A DNA stretch of 64,000 nucleotides. Source: Anaerococcus vaginalis ATCC 51170 (lineage in GTDB: Bacteria; Bacillota; Clostridia; Tissierellales; Peptoniphilaceae). Position numbers and translations under genes: made by a program. Positions 25,745 through 47,352 of this stretch are shown here, piece after piece. The notes beneath the pieces were generated by a model that was not told where the DNA came from, did not search any database, and was given only the letters and a program-made list of their open reading frames with translations. Where the stretch lies: the NCBI RefSeq assembly GCF_000163295.1, contig NZ_GG700527.1, positions 122,175-186,174 on the forward strand. The letters run 5' to 3'. Position 1 is the stretch's first letter. Every line of letters starts with the position of its first letter.

Positions 25745-27015
25745 TGTTAGATACGCTAAAGAGAGCTTGGGGTGAAGAAGAAATAAGAAAAAAATTCTAC
25801 TTCACTCTAGTGATGTTATTAATATATAGATTAGGAAATAACATCCCAATTCCATTTATAGATGCACAAAAGTTAGCAGCAGCATATAAGGGAATGGAAG
25901 GAACACTTGTAGATTATTTAAATATGCTAACAGGTGGCGGACTTTCAACCCTATCAATATTTGCCCTTGGAGTGCAACCATACATTACAGCATCAATAGT
26001 AATGCAATTATTAACAGTTGTAATACCAAGACTTGAAGAGCTAACAAAAGAAGGCGAAGCAGGAAGAAAAACTATACAAAAATATACAAGATATATGACA
26101 ATATTTCTTGCAATATTTCAAGCTATAGCAATAACAAACGGATTATATGGAGCAGCTTTATCATCTGCAACACCATTCCAAAAAATAGTTATGAATGTTG
26201 TACTAATCGGTGGAACAATGCTTGTTACATGGATGGGAGAAACCATAACAGAAAAAGGAATAGGAAATGGTGTATCAATTATAATCTTTATGGGTATCAT
26301 TGCAAATGTACCTAAAACATTAAAAACTTGGAAGACTGGTCTTCATTACAATACAATTACATGGATTTCAATTTTAATCATGGCACTTGTAGTAATTTTT
26401 ATAGTAGTATTTACAGTAAAAATTACAGAAGGCGAAAGAAAAATACCAGTCCAATACGCAAAAAGAGTAGTTGGAAGAAAAATGTATGGCGGACAATCAA
26501 CTCATATACCAGTAAAAGTAAATATGAGCGGAGTAATGCCAATAATATTTGCTTCAGCAGTATTAGCAATTCCATCAACAATCTCATTATTTATGGGAAA
26601 TGCTAATGGAGGATTGAATCAATTCTTTAGCAAATCAACTTATGGTTTTGTAATTTATCTTGTTGTTCAAGCAGTATTAATATTAGTATTTGCTTATTTC
26701 TACAACATGATACAATTTAATACAGTTGAATATGCAAAACAACTTCAACAAAATGGTGGTTTTATTCCAGGAATAAGACCAGGAAAACCAACTAGTGACT
26801 ACCTAGCAAAAGTAGGAAATAAAATTACATTTATTGGTGCTATTTCGTTAGCGCTACTTACAATAGTACCAGCACTATCATCAAGATTTTTAGGACTAAA
26901 CTTATCCTTTGGAGGAAGTTCAGTAATAATTGTTGTTGGTGTAATACTTGAAACAGTGAAACAAATAGAAGCAATGCTTACTATGAAAAACTATAAAGGA
27001 TTTTTAAATAGGTAA
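25744..27015 (+). CDS. secY: Protein translocase subunit SecY
   Basis: A 423-residue integral membrane protein with ten predicted helices; it is the channel of the Sec translocon. The second helix region forming the plug (TGGGLSTLSIFALGVQPYITA) and the large cytoplasmic loop with RKIPVQYAKRVVGRKMYGG, which binds SecA and ribosomes, are clear. The length is standard. adk begins 4 bases later. Confidence 0.98.
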   Translation: MLDTLKRAWGEEEIRKKFYFTLVMLLIYRLGNNIPIPFIDAQKLAAAYKGMEGTLVDYLNMLTGGGLSTLSIFALGVQPYITASIVMQLLTVVIPRLEELTKEGEAGRKTIQKYTRYMTIFLAIFQAIAITNGLYGAALSSATPFQKIVMNVVLIGGTMLVTWMGETITEKGIGNGVSIIIFMGIIANVPKTLKTWKTGLHYNTITWISILIMALVVIFIVVFTVKITEGERKIPVQYAKRVVGRKMYGGQSTHIPVKVNMSGVMPIIFASAVLAIPSTISLFMGNANGGLNQFFSKSTYGFVIYLVVQAVLILVFAYFYNMIQFNTVEYAKQLQQNGGFIPGIRPGKPTSDYLAKVGNKITFIGAISLALLTIVPALSSRFLGLNLSFGGSSVIIVVGVILETVKQIEAMLTMKNYKGFLNR

Positions 27016-36918: not shown

Positions 36919-36935
36919 TGTAAATGTTTTGTAAA
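36919..36935 (+). promoter_or_regulatory. WalR-type box upstream of the giant surface protein
   Basis: TGTAAATGTTTTGTAAA is an exact fit to the WalR (YycF) consensus TGTWAH-N5-TGTWAH. It lies 27 bp before a TATAAT at 36963-36968 that has only a weak -35, as expected for an activator-dependent promoter. A second box of the same form precedes the SH3/lysozyme-like gene. Confidence 0.6.
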
Positions 36936-36962
36936 AGGCTTTTATTTCATTGATTATTAGTA

Positions 36963-36968
36963 TATAAT
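36963..36968 (+). promoter_or_regulatory. -10 element of the giant surface protein gene
   Basis: TATAAT with no good -35 at 16-18 bp upstream; the WalR-type box lies upstream instead. Confidence 0.5.
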
Positions 36969-37006
36969 TGAAGTAATAATATAGTAAAAAAAAGGAGGTA
37001 TTTTTA

Positions 37007-40000
37007 GTGAAAAGTAAAAAGAATAAAAAAATTATTTTAACACTATTACTAGCTATTATTTTGCTCGGTACAAATATAGCTTTGGCGTCGTATACAAAAC
37101 GTGATGACGATAGCGATGATATTTATATCGACAAGATAAATGAAAATATTGTAAAAAAACCTACTGAGCTTGATGAAAGCAAGGATATTGATGAACAATT
37201 AGAAAATCCAAAATATCCAAATATTTACACCTATAGGTGGGATTACAAAATTGGTGTAAAAGAAAACGGTTTAGATAAGGATAAAATTATTTTTCAACCA
37301 TATATAGCAAGCGTAGGAGAAAATGCAAGTCCAGAAGAAAGGGCAGAAGTTTTAAAAGAAATAAACTTGCCTGAAGTAAAAGGCTACAAAAAACCAAATG
37401 GCATTGATTCCTATGATGTTACTTATGATTTTGTAAAAAATAATGCCAAAGATACAAAAAAAGCGAGCTTTTTGTTTTATGGAAATCATGATTATAAATA
37501 TGAACCAGAAGAAAAATATATTAAAGTAAAATATATTTTTCAAAACTTATATGATCATGAAAAATATGAAAATCCAAATGGTGAAAAAGAACCATTAATC
37601 AAAGAATATAAGGCAAAAACTGGAGATAAATTTAAAATTCCAGGACTAAATAAAGAAGATAGTGAAAAATATGCAAAAGGATTCGAACCAGAACAAAATA
37701 ATCTTGAGGTAACAGTTCCAGAAAATGCAAGTGAAACTCCTTTAATTTATCACTACAATAGAAAAACTTTCCAATTGGATTTTGATACGGATGGTGGATC
37801 TTATGTACCAAATATGACTCTATATTATGGTCAAACTATTCCATATTTTGATTACAAACCAACAAAAGATGGGTCAGTTTTTAAAGGATGGAAGTCTAAT
37901 AAAGATATAGAAACTTCTGATGGCACAAAAATAAAAAAAGGCGATCTTATAGATATGAAAAATTATCCAGATGGTCTAAAAGATGCAATGCCATCAGAAA
38001 ACATCATCTTTACTGCAGTTTGGGAAGAAGAACCAACAGCAGATTATAAGATTCAATTTTGGACTCAAAAAGCTGAATCTGATGGCTATGATTTTATAGG
38101 AGCAAAAGTAATAAAAGATGCAGACACAGGCTCTCGTCCAAATTTAGATTCAATGTTACCAGAAGGTTTCAAATTCCCTGAAATAGAAAAAGATCTTACA
38201 AAAAAGGGAAAAGAAAAAGAACTTAATAAATATTATGTTAGAAATACCAAAAAAATAAAAGAAGAAAATACAGAAAATGTTAAAAATGATGATGGATCAA
38301 GTAAAGTTCTTGTAAAAAAAGTTCATTCTGATGGCTCAACTACCTATAACATTTACTATGATCGTCAAACATATACAATGCTATTTGAAAAATTCTGCAT
38401 TGATAGTCCTGAAGAAGGTTTTCCAGCTAAAGAAGCAAAAATGGTACTTCCTGATGGAAGAAAATATGATTCTACAAAAGAAGTGAACAAACCATATAAA
38501 TTTACAGCGAAATTTGGCGAGAGATTGACAAAATGGCCTAATGATATGTGGCTTATAGAAAAAGGCGGAGTTGACTTTGATCCAAATCGTAGTTTTATAG
38601 GCTGGCAATTAAATACAGAAAATAATAATAATGAAGATCAAAGTCTATATCTTGATACTCCACCATACTGGCTAACATCAAAAGATTTTATAGACAGAGA
38701 TTTTACTAGTGAATGGGGTCCAGATGTAAGACCTGCAACTCACTCAACTTCAACAGGAGAAGTCCTACCTGAAAGAACTATTTCTCTTGGACCTTGTCAA
38801 AGTGCAGAGGATCAATTTGCTATCTACTATATGGAATATTTGTTTGAGGGCTTTGACGGTAAGCTCCACTATAATCCAGATATGTCATATACAAAAATTG
38901 ACACAAATGCTCAATACGAATATCCTTCTCCAGGTATTGTAGGATTTAAACCTAAATATGAGGGAATTGATCCTTATGACGATGTACTTCAACGTCCTGC
39001 AAAGAAAAAAGGCTATACAGAAAGACTTACAGAATACACTTTTGATGAACTTAAAGAAAAATTAGCTGAATATGAGAAAGATAGATCAACGGATGAAAAA
39101 TCCTTCTTTGATCCTATAGGTGAAAAAGGAATTAATGGAGTTCCTTTCAAGGACATTGAGAGATACCGCTTTGCATTTACTTATGAACGTGAAAAATATA
39201 CACTATATCTTGATAAAGATCCATCAGATGTAAATGCACATGCTGATTTTTCTGGAGAGAAATTTTCAAATGGTAAAGATGCGATTATATCTGATGTATA
39301 TTATGATCTTCCTCTTAGAAAATTAAATCTTGATGAAGATTATAAGCTTACAGAAGATGATAAGCCTAAAAATCTTCCTGATAATTATGTATTTAAGGGT
39401 TGGGCATTGGATGCTCAAGGTAGCAAGCTTATTAAGGATACTATTAAAGAATCTGAGAAACTTGAATCTCAAATTGCTGAGAAATATAAAGAGCTTGAAA
39501 AAAATTCAAATGACAAAGAAAAGAAATTTAAGTTACAAAATGAAATAAAAGAGTTAAAGTCTAAGCTAGATGATGCTGACGCTAACATGCCTAATTATGA
39601 TGTTGTCCTTTATGCAAAATGGGGCGAACCTGACAAAAATTATAAGGTAAAATTTGATCCAAATCTTGATCCAAATGATGGAGAAATTAATTCTATTGAA
39701 CAAAAAGATATTGCAACTCACAAAGATGGCGAAAGAATTAAAATATCAACTGAATTTGGAAAAGTTCCATACAAATCTCCTGAAAAACTTAAAAATGAAG
39801 GAAATACTCAAGTATTTGATGTAGCAAATAGAATGACAATAAAAGAGCCACCAAAACCACAAAGAGATGGTTATGATTTCTTGGGCTGGGAGCTTGTAAC
39901 TTATAATGAAAATGGAAGTGAAGATACTTCTTATAAAGATAAATATGGTGTTCCAAGACTTTATTCTTTTGGAAACGAAATTATATCAGATCTTCATCTT

Positions 40001-43000
40001 AGAGCAATTTGGGTAAAAAATGGTTTAGTTGATGTAAAAGTCTACCATCACTTGCTTGATAAAGATTTTAATGAAGTAAAATTAGTTGATGGCGTAATAA
40101 AAAATCAAAGAGTTAAAACAAACACTACAGCTTATGGTGTTATGCAAGGCGAAGATTACATCTTGGCTAATGATGATGAATTTGATAATAAAAATGTAAA
40201 TGAAGATACAAAAAATCAATACGAAAAATATAAAGAAGAAACGGAAAGAGAAAATTCTTATTATCAAAACCAAGTTGTTCAAGCTGAAGACGATAATACA
40301 ACATATGATGATGATGGAAATCCACAACAACCAATAAAATTAGACTTTAAAAATCAATTCCACTTCTACTACAGACCTTATCGTTATAGAAAATATACAG
40401 TAAATTATCTACTAGCAAAAGATGGACAAGATAGTTTTGAAACTGTTGGAAGTCAAAAAGACTTTGAAAATGTAATAGAACCTGAAGAAGTTTTAAATGG
40501 AAATAGACACTTTGATTCTGTAAATTATAGAAAAATAAGAGGTTTCAAATTAGTAAGTCCTCCACAAACTCAATTATTCTTTGATATTAACGAATACACT
40601 CACGAACTAAATGGTATTAATGGAATAAAAAATACAAAGGATGTTAATTTCTATTATAAAGATGTCAGAGTTCTAAAAACAAAAAATCCAAATACACCAA
40701 TACCTAAGGGCTATCACAGAATTACCTTTAAGGCACTTGATAATGGTTCATTTGGAACAGACAAAGATGGCAAGGAAATAAAAGAAATTTATTATGATGT
40801 AATCGATGGTTTGAATTTCAAAAATATTCCTGTACCAACAGATGAAGAGAAAAATGGCATAAAAATTACTCCAGATAAAAATTACAACATTGGTTCATGG
40901 AGTGGAAGAAGAGAAGGTGGAAAAGAATTAGGAGGTTTACTTGATGAAAATACTTCTATAAAACACAATTATGAATTTGAAATTGACTTTATAGAAGATA
41001 AATATCCAGAAGTAAAACCTATTAAAGTTTTTGAATCATCAAAAGATGACGGCGGAAACTTCATTAATGACTTTATGCCAACAAATGCCCAAATAGAAGA
41101 ATCTATTAGCGATTTAATTAAGCTTGAAAAATATAAAGATTATCAAGTCTTAGAAAAAGAAAAAATCTATGATAAGGTAAAAGAAGATGAAGCTTATAAT
41201 AATAAGCCAAGTGATGTTAAACCTAAAAAAGATTCAATTAAAGTAAGGGTTAATTTCAAAAATGATACTTACAAAGATTTTGAAATTCCTGTAGAAATTT
41301 ACAAAAATATATATAGGGCATTGGATAGTAAATCTAAACCAAATATAGTTCAAGACGACGAATTTTTGAAAGATTTTGTAAAAGTTGATGTAGTTCCAAC
41401 AAATAAGGCTAAAGATAAACAAACAAAAACTTATTATGTAAATCCAAAAGCTCAAGTAAGAATTCCAGAAAATGATCCAGAAGGAGAAAATGACTGGACA
41501 TTTGAAAAATGGACAGCTGATTTGGATTCATTGGAAGATAAAGATGATTTCAAAATGCCAAATCGTCATATTTTTGAAAATGAAACTGTGCTTACTGCAA
41601 GATATTCAAAAACACCAAAAGATATTGTATATCCACCAAGTGCTAAGATGATAACAACCTATGTAGGAAATTATCCAACTTTAGAAGAATATGAACAAAA
41701 AATAAAAGCTGGAAAAATCGGAAAAACTGGAGAAGTTGCAGAAATTGACTCTTATTATCTAATAGATAAAAAACCAGACGTAAGCAAAGAAATTCTACAT
41801 CCAGAAAAAGAAATAGATGATCCAACAGATCCAACAAAGAAAGTTTACACAAATTACCAAAGAGTAAAAGTAACTTACAAAACAGGAGAAGTATTCTTAG
41901 TTGACGTACCAGTAAGAGTATTAGATACAATCAAAGAAGTACCAGATGAAAATACAATTCCAGGAGAAGACTACAAAGATTATATTCTAGTAACAGTAGA
42001 TCCAACAGACAAAGCAAAAGATCCAACAAAGAAATACTACAGAGTAAGAAAAGATGTAGAAGTAACAATTCCATCAAATAATCCAGAAGGAATAGAAGTA
42101 ACAAGTAAAAACGGTGAAAGCCACAGCTACGAATTTACCAAATGGAAAGAAAAAGATACAAAACCAAGAGAATGGGAAAAAGACAAAAAAATCATAGGCA
42201 AATTCGAAAAAGACACAGAAATAATAGCAAAATATAGTCTTAAAGCGTGGCAACAAGAAAAACCAGAGAAAAATGTAATACCAAATGATCCAGATAATCC
42301 ACAAAAAAAACCAAAAGGTTATGTAAGTGTAAAATTCACAAGTGATGATGGATTAACACTAAGTGGCATCCAAGAATATTTCGTAAAGAAAAACCTTGAA
42401 ATAACATTAAAAGATATAAAATGGGCACAAATAGAAGAAAAAGTAGGATATAAATTCGATAAATGGGATAAAGAAAAAGATTTAGAAATAAAAGATCAAG
42501 ACATAGTTGTAAATGCAACATCAATCCCATTAAAAGATGTAATACCAAAAAAAGATGGCGAAGAACAACCAAAAGGTTACGTAAAAGTAGACTTCAAAAC
42601 AGACGGAAATGGAACACTAGAAGGAGAAACAAGCTACTATGTAAATCCAACCAAAGAAGTAACACTAGAAGTTCCAGAAACAAAAGCAAATATAGGCTAT
42701 AAGTTTAAAGAATGGGACAAAGATGCAAACAAGCCAACAAAATATGAAAAAGATACAACAATCACAGCAAAATTTAAAGCACTAGATGATGTAAGCGAAA
42801 CACCAATAAAAGATTACGTAAAAGTAACATTCCAAATAGAAGGAAAAGGTGGAAAAATAAAAGAAGGCGAAGTAGAAACCTACTATGTAAATCCAGAAAA
42901 GAAAGTCATAGTAACAACGCCAAAGCTAGAAACAGAAATAGGCTATAAATTCAAAGGATGGGATAAAGATACAAGTAAACTAACCCAATATACAGAAAAA

Positions 43001-45253
43001 GAAACAATAATAAAAGGAACATTTGAAAAAATAGCCGACATAATCCCAGAAATTGACGAAGATGGAAAACCAAACGACAAACCAAAAGGCTACGTAGAAG
43101 TAATCTTTGAAAAAGGAAAACACGGAGTCTTAGAAGGAATAACAAAATACTACGTCAATCCAAAAGCAGGAAAAAAATTAAAAGAAATTAAGCATCCAGA
43201 AATCAAAGCAAACAATGGATACGAAAAATACGGATGGGATACAGACGATAATACAGAAATAACCAAAAAAATAATCGTCACAGCAAGATATAGCAAAGAG
43301 TTTACACCATTAGCACAAGAACCAAGTGCGAAGATGATAACAACCTATGTAGGAAATTATCCAACTTTAGAAGAATACGAACAAAAAATAAAAGCTGGAA
43401 AAATTGGAAACAGTGGAAAAGTTGCAGAAATTGACTCTTATTATCTAATAGATAAAAAACCAGACGTAAGCAAAGAAATTCTAGATCCAGAAAAAGAAAT
43501 AGATGATCCAACAGATCCAACAAAGAAAGTTTACACAAATTACCAAAGAGTAAAAGTAACCTACAAAACAGGAGAAGTATTCTTAGTAGACGTACCAGTA
43601 AAAGTATTAGATACAATCAAAGAAGTACCAGATGAAAATACAATTCCAGGAGAAGACTACAAAGATTACATCCTAGTAACAGTAAATCCAACAGACAAAG
43701 CAGTAAACAAAGAAAAATCATACTACAGAGTAAGAAGAGATGTAGAAGTAACAATTCCAGAAAAAGATCCAACAGGAATAGAAGTAAAAAGTGAAAAAGA
43801 TAGCCACAGCTACGAATTTAGCGAATGGAGAGAAAAAGAAGACACCGAACCAAGAAAATGGGAAAAAGGTAAAAAAATCACAGGAAAATTCGAAAAAGAC
43901 ACAGAAATAATAGCAAAATATAGTCTTAAAGCGTGGCAAATAGAAGAAACCAAGAAAAATATTATTCCTGATCCAGAAGAAATACCTGAGGGCTATGTAA
44001 GCGTAACATTTACGAATGATAATGGTTTGTATTTGGATGGCACACAAAATTATGCTGTAAAGAAAAATGTAAATGTCAAATTAAGTGATTTGAAATGGCC
44101 AAATATTGGAGAACATTTGGGTTATGAATTTGTAAGTTGGGATCAAGAAAAAACTTTAGAAATAAAAGATAAAGATATAGTTGTAAGGGCAAGCTCAAAG
44201 GCGATTGATGATGTGATTCCAAATGATGGAAATCATGAAAAGCCAAAAGACTATGTAAAAGTAGATTTTACAACTGATGGTCATGGAAGTCTAAGTGGAC
44301 AATTATCATATTTTGTAAATCCTACAAAAGAAGTAACTTTGGAATTCCCACAAGCAAGTCCAAATACTGGATATGAATTTGGATCATGGGATCCTGATAA
44401 TACAAGTAAGCCAACTGTTTATAACGTTGACACTACAATTACAGCATATTTCAATGAATTGAATGATGTAAGCACTGAACCTGTAGAAGGATATGTTGAA
44501 GTTTCTTTTGTAACACAAGGCGAAGGTGGCTCAATAATGGATGGACAAATTACAAAATTCTATGTAAATCCAGAAAAAGAAGTTATTCTTCCACCTCCAA
44601 GTTTAAATGTTGAAATTGGATACGCATTTAATGGTTGGGATTTTGATACAATACAATTTGTTCAATACAAAGAAAATAAAATAGTTACTGGAACATTTGC
44701 TAAACTTCCTGATGTAATTCCAGAAGTTGATGGAAATGGTAATATTAATGATAAACCTCATGGATATGTTGAAGTGATTTTTGAAAAAGGAGATCATGGA
44801 GATCTTGAAGGAATAACAAAATATTATGTAAATCCAAAAGCTGGAAAAACTTTAGCAGAAATTGCTCATCCAAAAATTGTAGCAAAAACAGATTACAAAG
44901 TAAAAGGATGGGATACAGATGATAAGACAGTAATTAATAATAATATAATAGTAACTGCCTTGTATGAAAAAATTGAAAAAGCAGATCCTAAACCACAAGA
45001 ACCAACAAATCCACCACAACCATCCAATCCATCAAGCACAGAACCTTCTGTAGAAAAACCAAGTTCTAGCAATGAAAAGGATAAAGAAAAAGATGTTAAA
45101 TTACAAAAAGTAAGTGGAGATGATAAAAAAGGTTCAAATGTTGGAGGCACAAAAATGCCAAAAACAGGAATTGAAAGCAATTTAGGATTCTATTTATCAA
45201 CAATTGGACTAAGCACAATTGGATTATTTATCCTAAAAAAGAAAAATAAGTAA
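37007..45253 (+). CDS. Giant LPXTG-type cell-wall-anchored protein with InlB and super-repeats
   Basis: A 2748-residue surface protein. GTG start with GGAGG 8 bases upstream. Signal peptide about residues 1-28. InlB-type B-repeats (beta-grasp, GW-S/W-K ends) lie at about 250-345, 450-560, 728-870 and 878-1005. The third holds a charged coiled-coil insert at about 812-865. Rib-like and GYV...YYVNP...W modules follow from about 1230. Two 562-residue super-repeats, 1544-2105 and 2106-about 2650, each contain one Rib-like part and five such modules. A Pro/Ser/Lys-rich wall-spanning segment precedes the sortase motif MPKTG at 2717, a hydrophobic helix and a KKKNK tail. It is probably an adhesin; the ligand is unknown. 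A WalR-type box lies upstream and a terminator follows. Confidence 0.92.
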   Translation: MKSKKNKKIILTLLLAIILLGTNIALASYTKRDDDSDDIYIDKINENIVKKPTELDESKDIDEQLENPKYPNIYTYRWDYKIGVKENGLDKDKIIFQPYIASVGENASPEERAEVLKEINLPEVKGYKKPNGIDSYDVTYDFVKNNAKDTKKASFLFYGNHDYKYEPEEKYIKVKYIFQNLYDHEKYENPNGEKEPLIKEYKAKTGDKFKIPGLNKEDSEKYAKGFEPEQNNLEVTVPENASETPLIYHYNRKTFQLDFDTDGGSYVPNMTLYYGQTIPYFDYKPTKDGSVFKGWKSNKDIETSDGTKIKKGDLIDMKNYPDGLKDAMPSENIIFTAVWEEEPTADYKIQFWTQKAESDGYDFIGAKVIKDADTGSRPNLDSMLPEGFKFPEIEKDLTKKGKEKELNKYYVRNTKKIKEENTENVKNDDGSSKVLVKKVHSDGSTTYNIYYDRQTYTMLFEKFCIDSPEEGFPAKEAKMVLPDGRKYDSTKEVNKPYKFTAKFGERLTKWPNDMWLIEKGGVDFDPNRSFIGWQLNTENNNNEDQSLYLDTPPYWLTSKDFIDRDFTSEWGPDVRPATHSTSTGEVLPERTISLGPCQSAEDQFAIYYMEYLFEGFDGKLHYNPDMSYTKIDTNAQYEYPSPGIVGFKPKYEGIDPYDDVLQRPAKKKGYTERLTEYTFDELKEKLAEYEKDRSTDEKSFFDPIGEKGINGVPFKDIERYRFAFTYEREKYTLYLDKDPSDVNAHADFSGEKFSNGKDAIISDVYYDLPLRKLNLDEDYKLTEDDKPKNLPDNYVFKGWALDAQGSKLIKDTIKESEKLESQIAEKYKELEKNSNDKEKKFKLQNEIKELKSKLDDADANMPNYDVVLYAKWGEPDKNYKVKFDPNLDPNDGEINSIEQKDIATHKDGERIKISTEFGKVPYKSPEKLKNEGNTQVFDVANRMTIKEPPKPQRDGYDFLGWELVTYNENGSEDTSYKDKYGVPRLYSFGNEIISDLHLRAIWVKNGLVDVKVYHHLLDKDFNEVKLVDGVIKNQRVKTNTTAYGVMQGEDYILANDDEFDNKNVNEDTKNQYEKYKEETERENSYYQNQVVQAEDDNTTYDDDGNPQQPIKLDFKNQFHFYYRPYRYRKYTVNYLLAKDGQDSFETVGSQKDFENVIEPEEVLNGNRHFDSVNYRKIRGFKLVSPPQTQLFFDINEYTHELNGINGIKNTKDVNFYYKDVRVLKTKNPNTPIPKGYHRITFKALDNGSFGTDKDGKEIKEIYYDVIDGLNFKNIPVPTDEEKNGIKITPDKNYNIGSWSGRREGGKELGGLLDENTSIKHNYEFEIDFIEDKYPEVKPIKVFESSKDDGGNFINDFMPTNAQIEESISDLIKLEKYKDYQVLEKEKIYDKVKEDEAYNNKPSDVKPKKDSIKVRVNFKNDTYKDFEIPVEIYKNIYRALDSKSKPNIVQDDEFLKDFVKVDVVPTNKAKDKQTKTYYVNPKAQVRIPENDPEGENDWTFEKWTADLDSLEDKDDFKMPNRHIFENETVLTARYSKTPKDIVYPPSAKMITTYVGNYPTLEEYEQKIKAGKIGKTGEVAEIDSYYLIDKKPDVSKEILHPEKEIDDPTDPTKKVYTNYQRVKVTYKTGEVFLVDVPVRVLDTIKEVPDENTIPGEDYKDYILVTVDPTDKAKDPTKKYYRVRKDVEVTIPSNNPEGIEVTSKNGESHSYEFTKWKEKDTKPREWEKDKKIIGKFEKDTEIIAKYSLKAWQQEKPEKNVIPNDPDNPQKKPKGYVSVKFTSDDGLTLSGIQEYFVKKNLEITLKDIKWAQIEEKVGYKFDKWDKEKDLEIKDQDIVVNATSIPLKDVIPKKDGEEQPKGYVKVDFKTDGNGTLEGETSYYVNPTKEVTLEVPETKANIGYKFKEWDKDANKPTKYEKDTTITAKFKALDDVSETPIKDYVKVTFQIEGKGGKIKEGEVETYYVNPEKKVIVTTPKLETEIGYKFKGWDKDTSKLTQYTEKETIIKGTFEKIADIIPEIDEDGKPNDKPKGYVEVIFEKGKHGVLEGITKYYVNPKAGKKLKEIKHPEIKANNGYEKYGWDTDDNTEITKKIIVTARYSKEFTPLAQEPSAKMITTYVGNYPTLEEYEQKIKAGKIGNSGKVAEIDSYYLIDKKPDVSKEILDPEKEIDDPTDPTKKVYTNYQRVKVTYKTGEVFLVDVPVKVLDTIKEVPDENTIPGEDYKDYILVTVNPTDKAVNKEKSYYRVRRDVEVTIPEKDPTGIEVKSEKDSHSYEFSEWREKEDTEPRKWEKGKKITGKFEKDTEIIAKYSLKAWQIEETKKNIIPDPEEIPEGYVSVTFTNDNGLYLDGTQNYAVKKNVNVKLSDLKWPNIGEHLGYEFVSWDQEKTLEIKDKDIVVRASSKAIDDVIPNDGNHEKPKDYVKVDFTTDGHGSLSGQLSYFVNPTKEVTLEFPQASPNTGYEFGSWDPDNTSKPTVYNVDTTITAYFNELNDVSTEPVEGYVEVSFVTQGEGGSIMDGQITKFYVNPEKEVILPPPSLNVEIGYAFNGWDFDTIQFVQYKENKIVTGTFAKLPDVIPEVDGNGNINDKPHGYVEVIFEKGDHGDLEGITKYYVNPKAGKTLAEIAHPKIVAKTDYKVKGWDTDDKTVINNNIIVTALYEKIEKADPKPQEPTNPPQPSNPSSTEPSVEKPSSSNEKDKEKDVKLQKVSGDDKKGSNVGGTKMPKTGIESNLGFYLSTIGLSTIGLFILKKKNK
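41636..45000 (+). repeat. Two 1686-bp in-frame super-repeats inside the surface protein gene
   Basis: Copy 1 begins at 41636 and copy 2 at 43322, an offset of exactly 562 codons. The first about 618 bp of each (41636-42253 and 43322-43939) are nearly identical in DNA. Beyond that the copies align in protein but differ in many codons. Confidence 0.9.
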
Positions 45254-45263
45254 AATTTTTCCT

Positions 45264-45292
45264 AACCCTAGCTAAAGCTAGGGTTATTTTTT
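45264..45292 (+). terminator. Terminator of the surface protein gene
   Basis: The stem AACCCTAGC / GCTAGGGTT with loop TAAA is followed by ATTTTTT. Confidence 0.88.
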
Positions 45293-45297
45293 GCAAA

Positions 45298-45358
45298 AAA
45301 AATCCAATCTATAAATTTCAATAGGCAATAAGCTTTTGAAAATATAGATTGGATTTTT
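45298..45358 (-). terminator. Terminator of the DHFR operon (also readable from the plus strand)
   Basis: The 16-bp perfect arms (45298-45313 and 45343-45358) have TTTCAA/TTGAAA pairing further in, so a long hairpin forms with T runs on both strands. Confidence 0.75.
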
Positions 45359-45398
45359 GTTTTTAAATTATTAATTGTTAATTAGTTAAAAATTAATT

Positions 45399-45638
45399 TT
45401 ATAGAAATTCAACTTCTTTTTTGTCAGTGATTTTTACAGGGATTCCTACTTGATTTGTTTTGATTTTTTCTTCAAAAGCATTAAAATTATCCCTATATGC
45501 CAAAAATCTTTTGAGATTTATCATAGAATCGGTTATATCTATGATTTCACATCCTTGGAAATTTTTTGAATCATTATTGTAATTTTCAATTATTTCAGTG
45601 CAATCTGGACAAAGTTTGCTAACAAATATTTCTATCAT
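45399..45638 (-). CDS. Glutaredoxin-like thioredoxin-fold protein
   Basis: A 79-residue protein beginning MIEIFVSKLCPDC. The CPDC motif follows a first beta strand as in glutaredoxins, and the cis-Pro segment VGIPVKIT lies near residue 66. Probably a thiol-disulfide carrier, though the partner is not evident. Its ATG overlaps the DHFR stop by four bases (ATGA), so translation is coupled to folA. Confidence 0.82.
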   Translation of the reverse strand: MIEIFVSKLCPDCTEIIENYNNDSKNFQGCEIIDITDSMINLKRFLAYRDNFNAFEEKIKTNQVGIPVKITDKKEVEFL

Positions 45639-46123
45639 TTTTTCCTCCTATAAGTTATATAATTAAATTTAAGGTCATTTTCGTAATAAGCTTCTGATTT
45701 ATTTACAATTTCAAAATTTTTGTCTTTATCAAAATTGTGAAGGAAGGTATCAGCATCTTTTTCTGCATCGATTTTTGTAATAATTGCCTCATCACAAAAA
45801 TCTAAGAGCAAGTCTACAATTTCTTTTCCACCGATTACAAAAACTTCTCTATCATTTTTATTTTCTCTTACATATTTTAAAATATTTTGTGGGCTATTAA
45901 AGACTAAAGCATCATCAAGTTTTAAATCTTTATTTCTTGTCAAAACTATATTTTCTCTTTTGGGAAGAGCCCCATTCATGGACTTATAAGTTTTTCTTCC
46001 CATTATAACTATATTATTTAGGGTAAGGTCTTTAAAATGTGCCAAGTCTTTTTTTAAATGAAAAAGAAGTTTATTATCTTTTCCAATTCCAAAATATCTA
46101 TCTACAGCCAAAATTATTTTCAT
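45635..46123 (-). CDS. folA: Dihydrofolate reductase
   Basis: A 162-residue enzyme that reduces dihydrofolate with NADPH and is the target of trimethoprim. Key parts: MKIILAVDRYFGIGKDNKLLFHLKKDL (substrate site, Met20-type loop; usual PW reads FH here), IVIMGRKTYKSM near residue 40, EVFVIGGKEIVD near 95 with the conserved GG. The active-site acid is expected near residue 26 (KKDLAHF gives Asp). No thymidylate synthase gene is adjacent. The ribosome site AAGGAGC lies before the ATG. Confidence 0.92.
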   Translation of the reverse strand: MKIILAVDRYFGIGKDNKLLFHLKKDLAHFKDLTLNNIVIMGRKTYKSMNGALPKRENIVLTRNKDLKLDDALVFNSPQNILKYVRENKNDREVFVIGGKEIVDLLLDFCDEAIITKIDAEKDADTFLHNFDKDKNFEIVNKSEAYYENDLKFNYITYRRKK

Positions 46124-46240
46124 AATTGCTCCTTGTAAATTTGTAATCTTCTTTTATTCTATCATTTTTGATAAATAAATTAAATTTTTTAAATTGATAT
46201 ATCAAAAGTGATGGGAAATGGAAGTAAAATTTTCACAAAA

Positions 46241-46267
46241 AAACTTCAAGCAATTAGCTTGAAGTTC
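46241..46267 (-). terminator. Terminator of the SH3/lysozyme-like gene
   Basis: The palindrome AACTTCAAGC / GCTTGAAGTT has a T run on the minus strand. Confidence 0.8.
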
Positions 46268-46288
46268 TAATTTTTTTATTATTTAATT

Positions 46289-47113
46289 TTAATACCAACC
46301 GTTGTTGTTCCAAAATGCTAGGGCGTTATCCCATGAACCATATCTTTGAGCTACGTATTGGTCTGCAACTCTTTCTTGGTTAGCTGGAGAATAATCTCCG
46401 TTTAAGTAAGATGCTGACAATTGATATTTTCCAATATATTGTCCGTTTCTAGCATTGTAAGATCCACCAGATTCTCTTTGTGCTATAATTTGTTTTGCTG
46501 ATGAATTATTAGCTGTATAATTTTGTGCTGGTGCTTGTGTTTGAGCAGGTGCTTGATAAGATTGAGCTGGAGCTTGGTATGAAGCTGTAGCTTGATAGTT
46601 ATTATTTGTGCTTGTTTGACTTTGAACTGGTGCATAATTTTTGTTGATAAAATCATTAGAAAGTCCTAATAAACTATTGTGGATATATCCTTCTTTACCT
46701 TCAAAAACTACTTTTACAAATCCGTTGTTTGCTGCAGATTTTACTTCTACACTACTATCTTTTTTAAGAACTTGATAAACTTCTGAATTTAAGTTATCAG
46801 ATTTTCTAAAGTTTGCTGGGCTTAAAATTTTAGCTGTTTCTGTAATATTAAACCATTGACCACCAACGTAAGCTTCTTTACCGTTAAATTTGATTTTTAA
46901 CCAACCATCTGTTGATCCTAGAACTTCATAAGATTTATCATCAGTTATAAGTCCGATTATATTATTTGATTCGCTAGCATCACTTCTTACATTAACTGCG
47001 TCAGCTTTGTTTGCATCTTTAACTGCAGATGAAGCCTCAGCCTTGTTTGATGCTGTAAATAATGTTGGTAGTACGATTGCCGCTGCTAAGGCATATTTTT
47101 TTAAATTTGTCAT
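46289..47113 (-). CDS. Secreted SH3-domain protein with Apf/lysozyme-like C-terminus
   Basis: A 274-residue exported protein. Signal peptide about residues 1-27 (AEA-S cleavage). Two bacterial SH3 domains at about 38-90 and 92-152 probably bind peptidoglycan. A linker rich in Gln, Pro and Ala (YQAPAQ repeats) leads to a C-terminal lysozyme-like domain of about 70 residues: AQRESGGSYNARNGQYIGKY with the catalytic Glu in RESGG, ending FWNNNGWY. The same domain is found in aggregation-promoting factors and in staphylococcal SceD/IsaA-type transglycosylases. Probably a cell-wall remodelling enzyme. GGAG precedes the ATG; a WalR-type box lies about 90 bp upstream. Confidence 0.88.
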   Translation of the reverse strand: MTNLKKYALAAAIVLPTLFTASNKAEASSAVKDANKADAVNVRSDASESNNIIGLITDDKSYEVLGSTDGWLKIKFNGKEAYVGGQWFNITETAKILSPANFRKSDNLNSEVYQVLKKDSSVEVKSAANNGFVKVVFEGKEGYIHNSLLGLSNDFINKNYAPVQSQTSTNNNYQATASYQAPAQSYQAPAQTQAPAQNYTANNSSAKQIIAQRESGGSYNARNGQYIGKYQLSASYLNGDYSPANQERVADQYVAQRYGSWDNALAFWNNNGWY

Positions 47114-47201
47114 AATGATTACTCCTTATTTGTGTTTTTTTTAATTTATTGTAACTAATTAATAGTTTTTTTATGTTTTTCATTTCTTTTTCGTAACAAT
47201 A

Positions 47202-47218
47202 GTTACAAAATAATTACA
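47202..47218 (-). promoter_or_regulatory. WalR-type box upstream of the SH3/lysozyme-like gene
   Basis: On the minus strand TGTAATTATTTTGTAAC fits TGTWAH-N5-TGTWAH exactly. WalR controls related transglycosylase genes (isaA, sceD) in staphylococci. A GTAAC-TATT-GTTAC inverted repeat overlaps it on the downstream side. Confidence 0.65.
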
Positions 47219-47352
47219 ACTCGTTTTTACAAGCATTATAATATATCAAGATTATGTAGAAAATATGTAGAAAAAATAAATTTTGTTTTTAAAGTTTTAT
47301 AAAAAACTATTTTTTGTTATAATATAAAAATACGAAAAGGAGTGAATTAATA

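Follow-up and report, generated by a model that had tools for sequence, protein, structure and literature searches.

Two genes of Anaerococcus vaginalis ATCC 51170, one for a giant secreted repeat protein and one for a small lysozyme-like protein, are each preceded by a direct repeat of the WalR type, which raises the question of whether these boxes belong to a wall regulon and which regulator would read them. Both lie in a 64,000-nt stretch of contig NZ_GG700527.1 (positions 122,175–186,174; ‘the window’), which falls on contig C6 of the 1.89-Mb genome (G000). A reading of this stretch from sequence alone had proposed that WalRK controls both genes, tying an adhesin to wall growth. The answer favoured here, with a probability of roughly 0.55, is that the boxes are sites of an OmpR-family regulator of a WalR-type hydrolase regulon, read in Anaerococcus by a paralogous regulator encoded at 761 kb of the same contig. 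We infer all of the regulatory steps described below.

Both boxes are where the sequence-only reading had placed them and match TGTWAH-N5-TGTWAH, the published WalR consensus (PMC4168254), exactly. TGTAAATGTTTTGTAAA (36919–36935, plus strand; two half-sites, 11-bp period) is 71 nt upstream of the GTG start codon of a 2748-amino acid (aa) protein (37007–45253, plus strand) with List_Bact_rpt and InlB B-type repeats and, in its translation, a C-terminal MPKTG sortase-type tail. TGTAATTATTTTGTAAC (47218–47202, minus strand), in the upstream region of an SH3/Apf-like gene, lies 88 nt before the ATG of a secreted 274-aa protein (46289–47113, minus strand) with SH3_3 domains and a lysozyme-like aggregation-promoting-factor C-terminal domain (‘Apf-like’ is a label for this domain only). 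The lack of a good -35 at both genes was also borne out: a consensus scan gave no sigma-70-type pair on the plus strand at the giant gene, and the sole such match on the strand of the SH3 gene is >100 bp upstream of its box.

A box-bearing wall regulon throughout the genus

The SH3 protein was matched in all 31 Anaerococcus genomes, and each of the 30 loci obtained (G023 gave none) has an exact box near the start on the gene strand, with none on the other strand. A protein combining NlpC/P60 and SH3 domains was likewise matched in 31/31 genomes, yielding 30 loci (none from G026), two of which (L069 and L078) have no readable upstream DNA. The box is present in all 28 readable loci, as the identical 17 bases in 25, and stands out from variable flanks when the promoters are stacked. 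For the two unreadable loci and the genome without a locus, all left out of these counts, the same 17-mer is found just upstream of the protein match by coordinates. Other boxed genes, in subsets of species, encode glucosaminidase, amidase and lysozyme.

Scanning ten sister-genus genomes with a somewhat relaxed pattern gave 58 matches versus 28 for its reversal, with 55/58 intergenic by our own rule. Domain scanning of 20 box-adjoining proteins from these genera identified NlpC/P60, Amidase_3, M23-G5, 3D/G5, polysaccharide deacetylase, SLH, CWB2, choline-binding and SH3 proteins, together with one subtilase and one rhodanese protein. The sister genome G089, in which canonical WalR was not found, has three matches and none for the reversed pattern, with G5, choline-binding and SH3 proteins as neighbours. 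Not all neighbours are envelope genes; in G093, boxes are followed by genes that we read as thioredoxin-reductase-like and glycosyltransferase-like. Because boxes are conserved at wall genes across Anaerococcus and also precede wall genes in sister genera, those before the SH3 and NlpC/P60 genes are, on this comparative evidence, a genuine genus-wide regulon of the WalR type. The lysozyme-like gene, for which membership had been proposed, belongs to it in all 30 loci obtained.

At four sister-genus loci (L319, L323, L340, L343) a box lies 33–47 bp before an ftsE-like gene, as read from the start of its sequence. FtsEX activates wall hydrolases elsewhere.

Box geometry differs between members. 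NlpC/P60 promoters consist of the box, 6 bp, a TTGAC -35, a 17-bp spacer and TAnnAT, often with a TGTTAA-like half-site beginning 33 bp past the box start; a box 6 bp upstream of the -35 would be in an activator position. At the SH3 gene, the putative -10 (TATAAT, picked by eye; 47235–47240, minus strand) is 16 nt upstream of the box, which would sit just downstream of the transcription start. This location, predicted for both the Apf-like and the glucosaminidase promoters, would suit a repressor. The regulator proposed to bind these direct repeats is an OmpR-family response regulator, which would control the wall hydrolases of the regulon.

A second direct repeat (TACATA...YACAYA, 11-bp period; 47253–47269, minus strand) overlaps the -35 region of the SH3 promoter and is kept in 29 of 30 orthologous SH3 promoters, 50–53 bp upstream of the box start. 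It may be the site of another regulator, or of the same regulator in the other orientation.

Box counts compared with chance

The window contains four exact consensus matches (0.83 expected; none of 100 shuffles had four), including two inside genes (26345–26361 and 43665–43681). In the whole genome there are 23, versus 29 for the reversed pattern. A tighter pattern, TGTWAYNNNTTTGTWAY, scanned in the 31 Anaerococcus genomes, gave 66 matches versus 51 reversed. Neither the genome nor the genus is enriched, so global counts were dropped as evidence, and position and conservation were used instead. A random frequency of hits, which the sequence-only reading held would speak against its proposal, is what the raw counts give; position and conservation, however, are non-random, and the regulon appears real.

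Manual inspection put 14 of the 23 genomic matches inside open reading frames (ORFs) of ≥60 aa and nine in intergenic DNA. Four of these nine share the strand of the gene that they precede: one stands before each of the genes for the giant protein, the SH3 protein, an NlpC/P60-SH3 endopeptidase and a small secreted glucosaminidase. For two more, the gene on the same strand is in one case decarboxylase-like, with a sulfatase-family gene diverging from it, and in the other the divergent neighbour of a pstS-like gene. The remaining three, on the opposite strand, lie ahead of a second pstS-like, an ABC-transporter and an htrA-like gene (we assigned the names pstS, htrA and decarboxylase by reading the sequences). 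The genome scan that had been suggested returned own-strand boxes at three wall genes (SH3, NlpC/P60-SH3 and glucosaminidase), with most matches inside ORFs. Allowing one mismatch gave 11 sites in this genome versus 9 reversed controls and no further convincing target.

With the tighter pattern, 38 of the 66 matches are at SH3 and NlpC/P60-SH3 genes and 14 more precede genes for secreted wall or wall-like proteins (manual count; one protein per group was domain-scanned and the others judged from their starts). The 28 outside the two conserved families comprise nine inside genes and 19 intergenic, the latter including L142 despite a flagged 61-aa ORF. The 19 are found before genes for the small glucosaminidase (six), an Amidase_5/choline-binding protein (three), a GH25 lysozyme (two), an SH3-NlpC paralogue (one), a secreted protein without a Pfam family (two overlapping matches, from three half-sites) and a chromate-transporter-like protein (three), with two having no close gene on their strand. 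Only two intergenic matches were seen among the 30 of 51 reversed matches that came with a locus; orthologous sites are not independent, so these intergenic ratios are not probabilities. Another repeat, where the gene for a 616-aa glucosaminidase begins (L012/L215), was not counted, being coding sequence and on the other strand. Longer arrays with the same 11-bp period comprise three half-sites before a secreted-protein gene in G009 (L187) and four before a small secreted-protein gene in G073 (L301).

The giant adhesin as a probable recruit

Whether the giant gene belongs to this regulon is a separate matter. Homologues of the N-terminus of its product were found in 9/31 genomes, giving ten loci outside its own genome (from eight genomes), and the box is at the same place in only one of these, in a genome of the same species. 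In that pair the box is identical, as is nearly the whole promoter. At another homologue (L116), an exact match that differs from this box lies 194 bp upstream.

The box scores 16.45 bits with a matrix trained on hydrolase boxes without it and ranks fourth among 320,286 positions of its own genome, behind three hydrolase boxes, in scanned DNA that was partly chosen for boxes. A score this high on the gene strand occurs in ~1.1e-4 of shuffled upstream segments. A putative -10 (TATAAT; 36963–36968, plus strand) lies 27 nt past the box, compared with 29 nt at the NlpC gene, and is preceded at 17-bp spacing by a weak -35, TTTTAT (both picked by eye).

One alternative accepts the SH3 box as real and takes the giant-gene box to be a chance match in an AT-rich spacer. 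It gains from the absence of the box from its place in nine of the ten outside loci, from the near identity of the two same-species promoters, which leaves the identity of the box saying little, and from the last base of the box, A where hydrolase boxes have C or T. Exact on-strand matches occur in ~0.001 of shuffled upstream segments from this genome (79 segments, 300 shuffles), which over ~1,800 genes, a number assumed rather than counted, would give about two by chance. Set against this are the matrix score and its rarity in shuffled segments, the NlpC-like spacing combined with a weak -35, and the boxing of surface-protein genes (SLH, CWB2, choline-binding) in sister genera. A chance origin is somewhat improbable; in this species the giant adhesin has probably joined the regulon, by way of a box that is placed as for an activator and followed by a weak -35. 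Recruitment is the weaker step of the proposed mechanism; the link between adhesin and wall growth that had been read from the sequence is plausible from score and geometry, but the box is matched in just one further genome, of the same species.

The 761-kb system as candidate reader

Eleven OmpR-type regulators were found in the A. vaginalis genome, ten of which were scanned and placed in a tree, leaving out an orphan at C6:1534 kb. The likeliest reader of the boxes appears to be the system at G000:C6:761 kb, a regulator gene followed by a gene for a kinase without a PAS domain and then a lipoprotein gene, in an order that suggests an operon. Its kinase is the only one of ten in this genome with the extracellular sensor domain Cache_WalK (29.2 bits; cut-off 27), and the domain is seen at E 0.01 in 18/19 aligned members; among 14 control genomes it was matched in B. 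subtilis alone. The recognition helix of the regulator has an RR pair, as in WalR. Regulator, kinase and lipoprotein genes were all matched in 19/19 loci from other Anaerococcus genomes (L195, with a short 298-aa frame, was left out of the kinase alignment and L211, 299 aa, out of the lipoprotein alignment). The 761-kb system is predicted to sense wall turnover and adjust hydrolase output, with its regulator reading the boxes.

Several results weigh against this reading, in addition to the unenriched counts and the restriction of the giant-gene box to one species. The 19 loci had been preselected as those for which the regulator search listed a match. By their best matches to a solved WalR structure, the DNA-binding domains of the 761-kb regulator (60.6 bits), a regulator at 1081 kb (58.8) and PhoP (61.2) are not separated, and the 761-kb recognition helix carries N in place of the T of canonical WalR. 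Most of the other genera sampled from the family showed no Cache_WalK at E 0.001.

Whole-protein comparisons of regulators were topped by RegX3 and added nothing. A regulator at 524 kb, with the best YycF score in this genome, was set aside as the genus-wide reader because a match of its size (≥243 bits) was listed in only 7/31 genomes and it adjoins ABC-transporter-like genes.

The lipoprotein encoded after the kinase (L191:8396–9871) has no Pfam family, and at E 1 none was common to more than 4/19 members. For its AlphaFold model (mean predicted local distance difference test score, pLDDT, 81; predicted template modelling score, pTM, 0.61), Foldseek returned nothing at E 0.001 and no match had a Z of 8; resemblances to RsiV-like, beta-propeller and lipocalin-like folds were weak and tied. 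The structure matches listed did not include YycH or YycI, an absence too limited to rule them out.

The wall boxes might instead be read by PhoP, whose half-sites resemble those of the WalR type. A phoU-phoPR-like cluster is present at ~275 kb, and the PhoP DNA-binding domain fits a WalR structure as well as that of the 761-kb regulator does. However, with the wall matrix the boxes next to pstS-like genes (two) reach just 7.0–7.6 bits, and on the pst strand they read TTTACA/TTAACA; in its recognition helix, PhoP is without the RR pair common to WalR and the 761-kb regulator. PhoP is an improbable reader.

It is similarly improbable that the boxes are read by another of the genome's own regulators, such as that at 1081 kb or the 1534-kb orphan. 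The 1081-kb regulator resembles WalR in its DNA-binding domain about as closely as the other candidates do, and matches as large as its own were listed in many genomes of the genus; the orphan is outside the scored and tree-placed set. Against the 1081-kb regulator are the kinase that follows it, which lacks Cache_WalK, and its less WalR-like recognition helix (IDTHIKNIR).

The two exact matches adjoining pstS-like genes (L006 and L007; G000:C6:269–271 kb), on the opposite strand and near the phoU-phoPR-like cluster, read TTTACA/TTAACA-N5-TTTACA on the pst strand, like Pho boxes. The 1534-kb orphan (L034) is an OmpR-type regulator whose receiver domain looks degenerate.

Canonical WalRK not found

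WalRK itself, the controller named by the sequence-only reading, was not found. None of the ten scanned regulators in this genome reached the WalR cut-off (NCBIfam YycF, 340 bits; best 248.6), nor did any in the 31 Anaerococcus genomes (best 249.6 bits), 27 of which are ≥90% complete. This cut-off is strict, nine of 13 members of the canonical clade also being below it, so the tree carries more weight. Scores are nevertheless bimodal: 13 of 15 other genomes of the order have regulators with 283–347 bits, while the same-family genomes G089 and G093 reach 207 and 218 (G101 was left out of this scoring).

In the regulator tree, the 13 canonical WalR sequences, seven from the same family, form one clade (support 100/98) that includes no Anaerococcus regulator. 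The 761-kb regulator belongs to another clade of 12 rows (100/99); five genomes of the family have both a member of that clade and canonical WalR. The kinase tree has the same two clades (100/99 each), with no included Anaerococcus kinase in the canonical WalK clade. The 761-kb kinase scored 233.9 bits with the WalK equivalog model, below the cut-off of 725, and had no Pfam PAS match. Canonical WalR is present in seven of the nine other family genomes sampled, and in 8/13 canonical-WalR genomes a Cache_WalK kinase of ~600 aa adjoins the regulator by coordinates. Anaerococcus, G089 and G093 group together in both trees (82/68 for regulators, 99/95 for kinases), and loss of WalRK on the line leading to them would be the simplest history. 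That a canonical pair is present and was missed through gaps or masked stretches is very improbable: the A. vaginalis assembly is 97.95% complete with a few stretches of N, but 0/31 genomes were positive, including those ≥90% complete, and the best score falls short of the ≥283 bits seen in 13 clade-member genomes.

With the canonical pair not found, the genomes below the cut-off and the ten regulators outside the clade, WalRK does not stand as controller, and the search for walRK that had been suggested as a check gave, for the canonical pair, the result that the sequence-only reading had named as refuting it. A fuller scenario, in which the last ancestor shared by Anaerococcus and two sister genera lost WalRK, the boxes were retained, a paralogous system became their reader and the giant adhesin was recruited in one species, is tentative and, taken whole, falls somewhat short of an even chance.

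Comparison with known systems

CwlO and LytE are NlpC/P60 proteins. In B. subtilis, WalRK activates a gene for a D,L-endopeptidase of the NlpC/P60 type (PMC7299342), and wall fragments are reported to bind the Cache_WalK domain (PMC9210968). The Anaerococcus system shares with WalRK (YycFG) of B. subtilis and S. aureus the consensus, a target of the NlpC/P60 type and, in the 761-kb kinase, Cache_WalK; it differs in that regulator and kinase belong to other clades, the kinase has no PAS domain and the best scores fall short of the WalR and WalK equivalog cut-offs.

Mycobacterium MtrAB has the layout of the 761-kb system, namely a regulator, a PAS-less, WalK-like kinase and a lipoprotein (PMC9210968). 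The name of the Mycobacterium lipoprotein is LpqB. The likeness does not extend to scores, the 761-kb regulator reaching 196.7 of the 300 bits of the MtrA cut-off and the kinase 167.1 of 450 for MtrB. C. difficile WalRK has a Cache-HAMP-HisKA-HATPase kinase without PAS, with a lipoprotein gene, walA, in the operon; S-layer genes linked to adhesion are part of its regulon (PMC9210968). As published, this arrangement shares with the 761-kb system a Cache-HAMP-HisKA-HATPase kinase lacking PAS and a lipoprotein gene in a (here presumed) operon; the lipoprotein gene comes first in the C. difficile operon, whereas in the 761-kb system it follows the kinase gene.

For the link between adhesin and regulator there is a precedent in S. 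mutans, where VicR footprints cover exact WalR-type sites before the surface genes wapA and gbpB (PMC4168254), although the genes differ and S. mutans has VicR itself.

WalRK has been described as essential and found in all Firmicutes (PMC9210968), and a genus keeping the boxes without a detectable canonical regulator would illustrate the transfer of an essential control circuit from one regulator to another. Anaerococcus would offer a natural test of the separate contributions of boxes, sensor and accessory lipoprotein and, if the proposal is true, drugs directed at WalK may miss these anaerobes, which are human commensals and opportunists. Literature searches pairing Anaerococcus with WalR-type regulators listed no work on such a regulon in the genus.

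The SH3 protein

Among named relatives, the 274-aa SH3 protein is closest to one from Anaerococcus obesiensis (96% identity). With the aggregation-promoting-factor equivalog NF052398 it scored 165.9 bits, just below the cut-off of 170, and with the C-terminal domain model NF052397 85.9 bits, above the cut-off of 40. Its C-terminal 68–70 residues (46289–46500, minus strand) have 77–82% identity to LysM proteins from plasmid records of Enterococcus and Limosilactobacillus, and residues 183–274 have 82% identity to an Aerococcus protein, the rest of the protein being far less similar. Because identity in the C-terminal domain far exceeds that elsewhere in the protein, this pattern suggests exchange of the domain with lactic acid bacteria.

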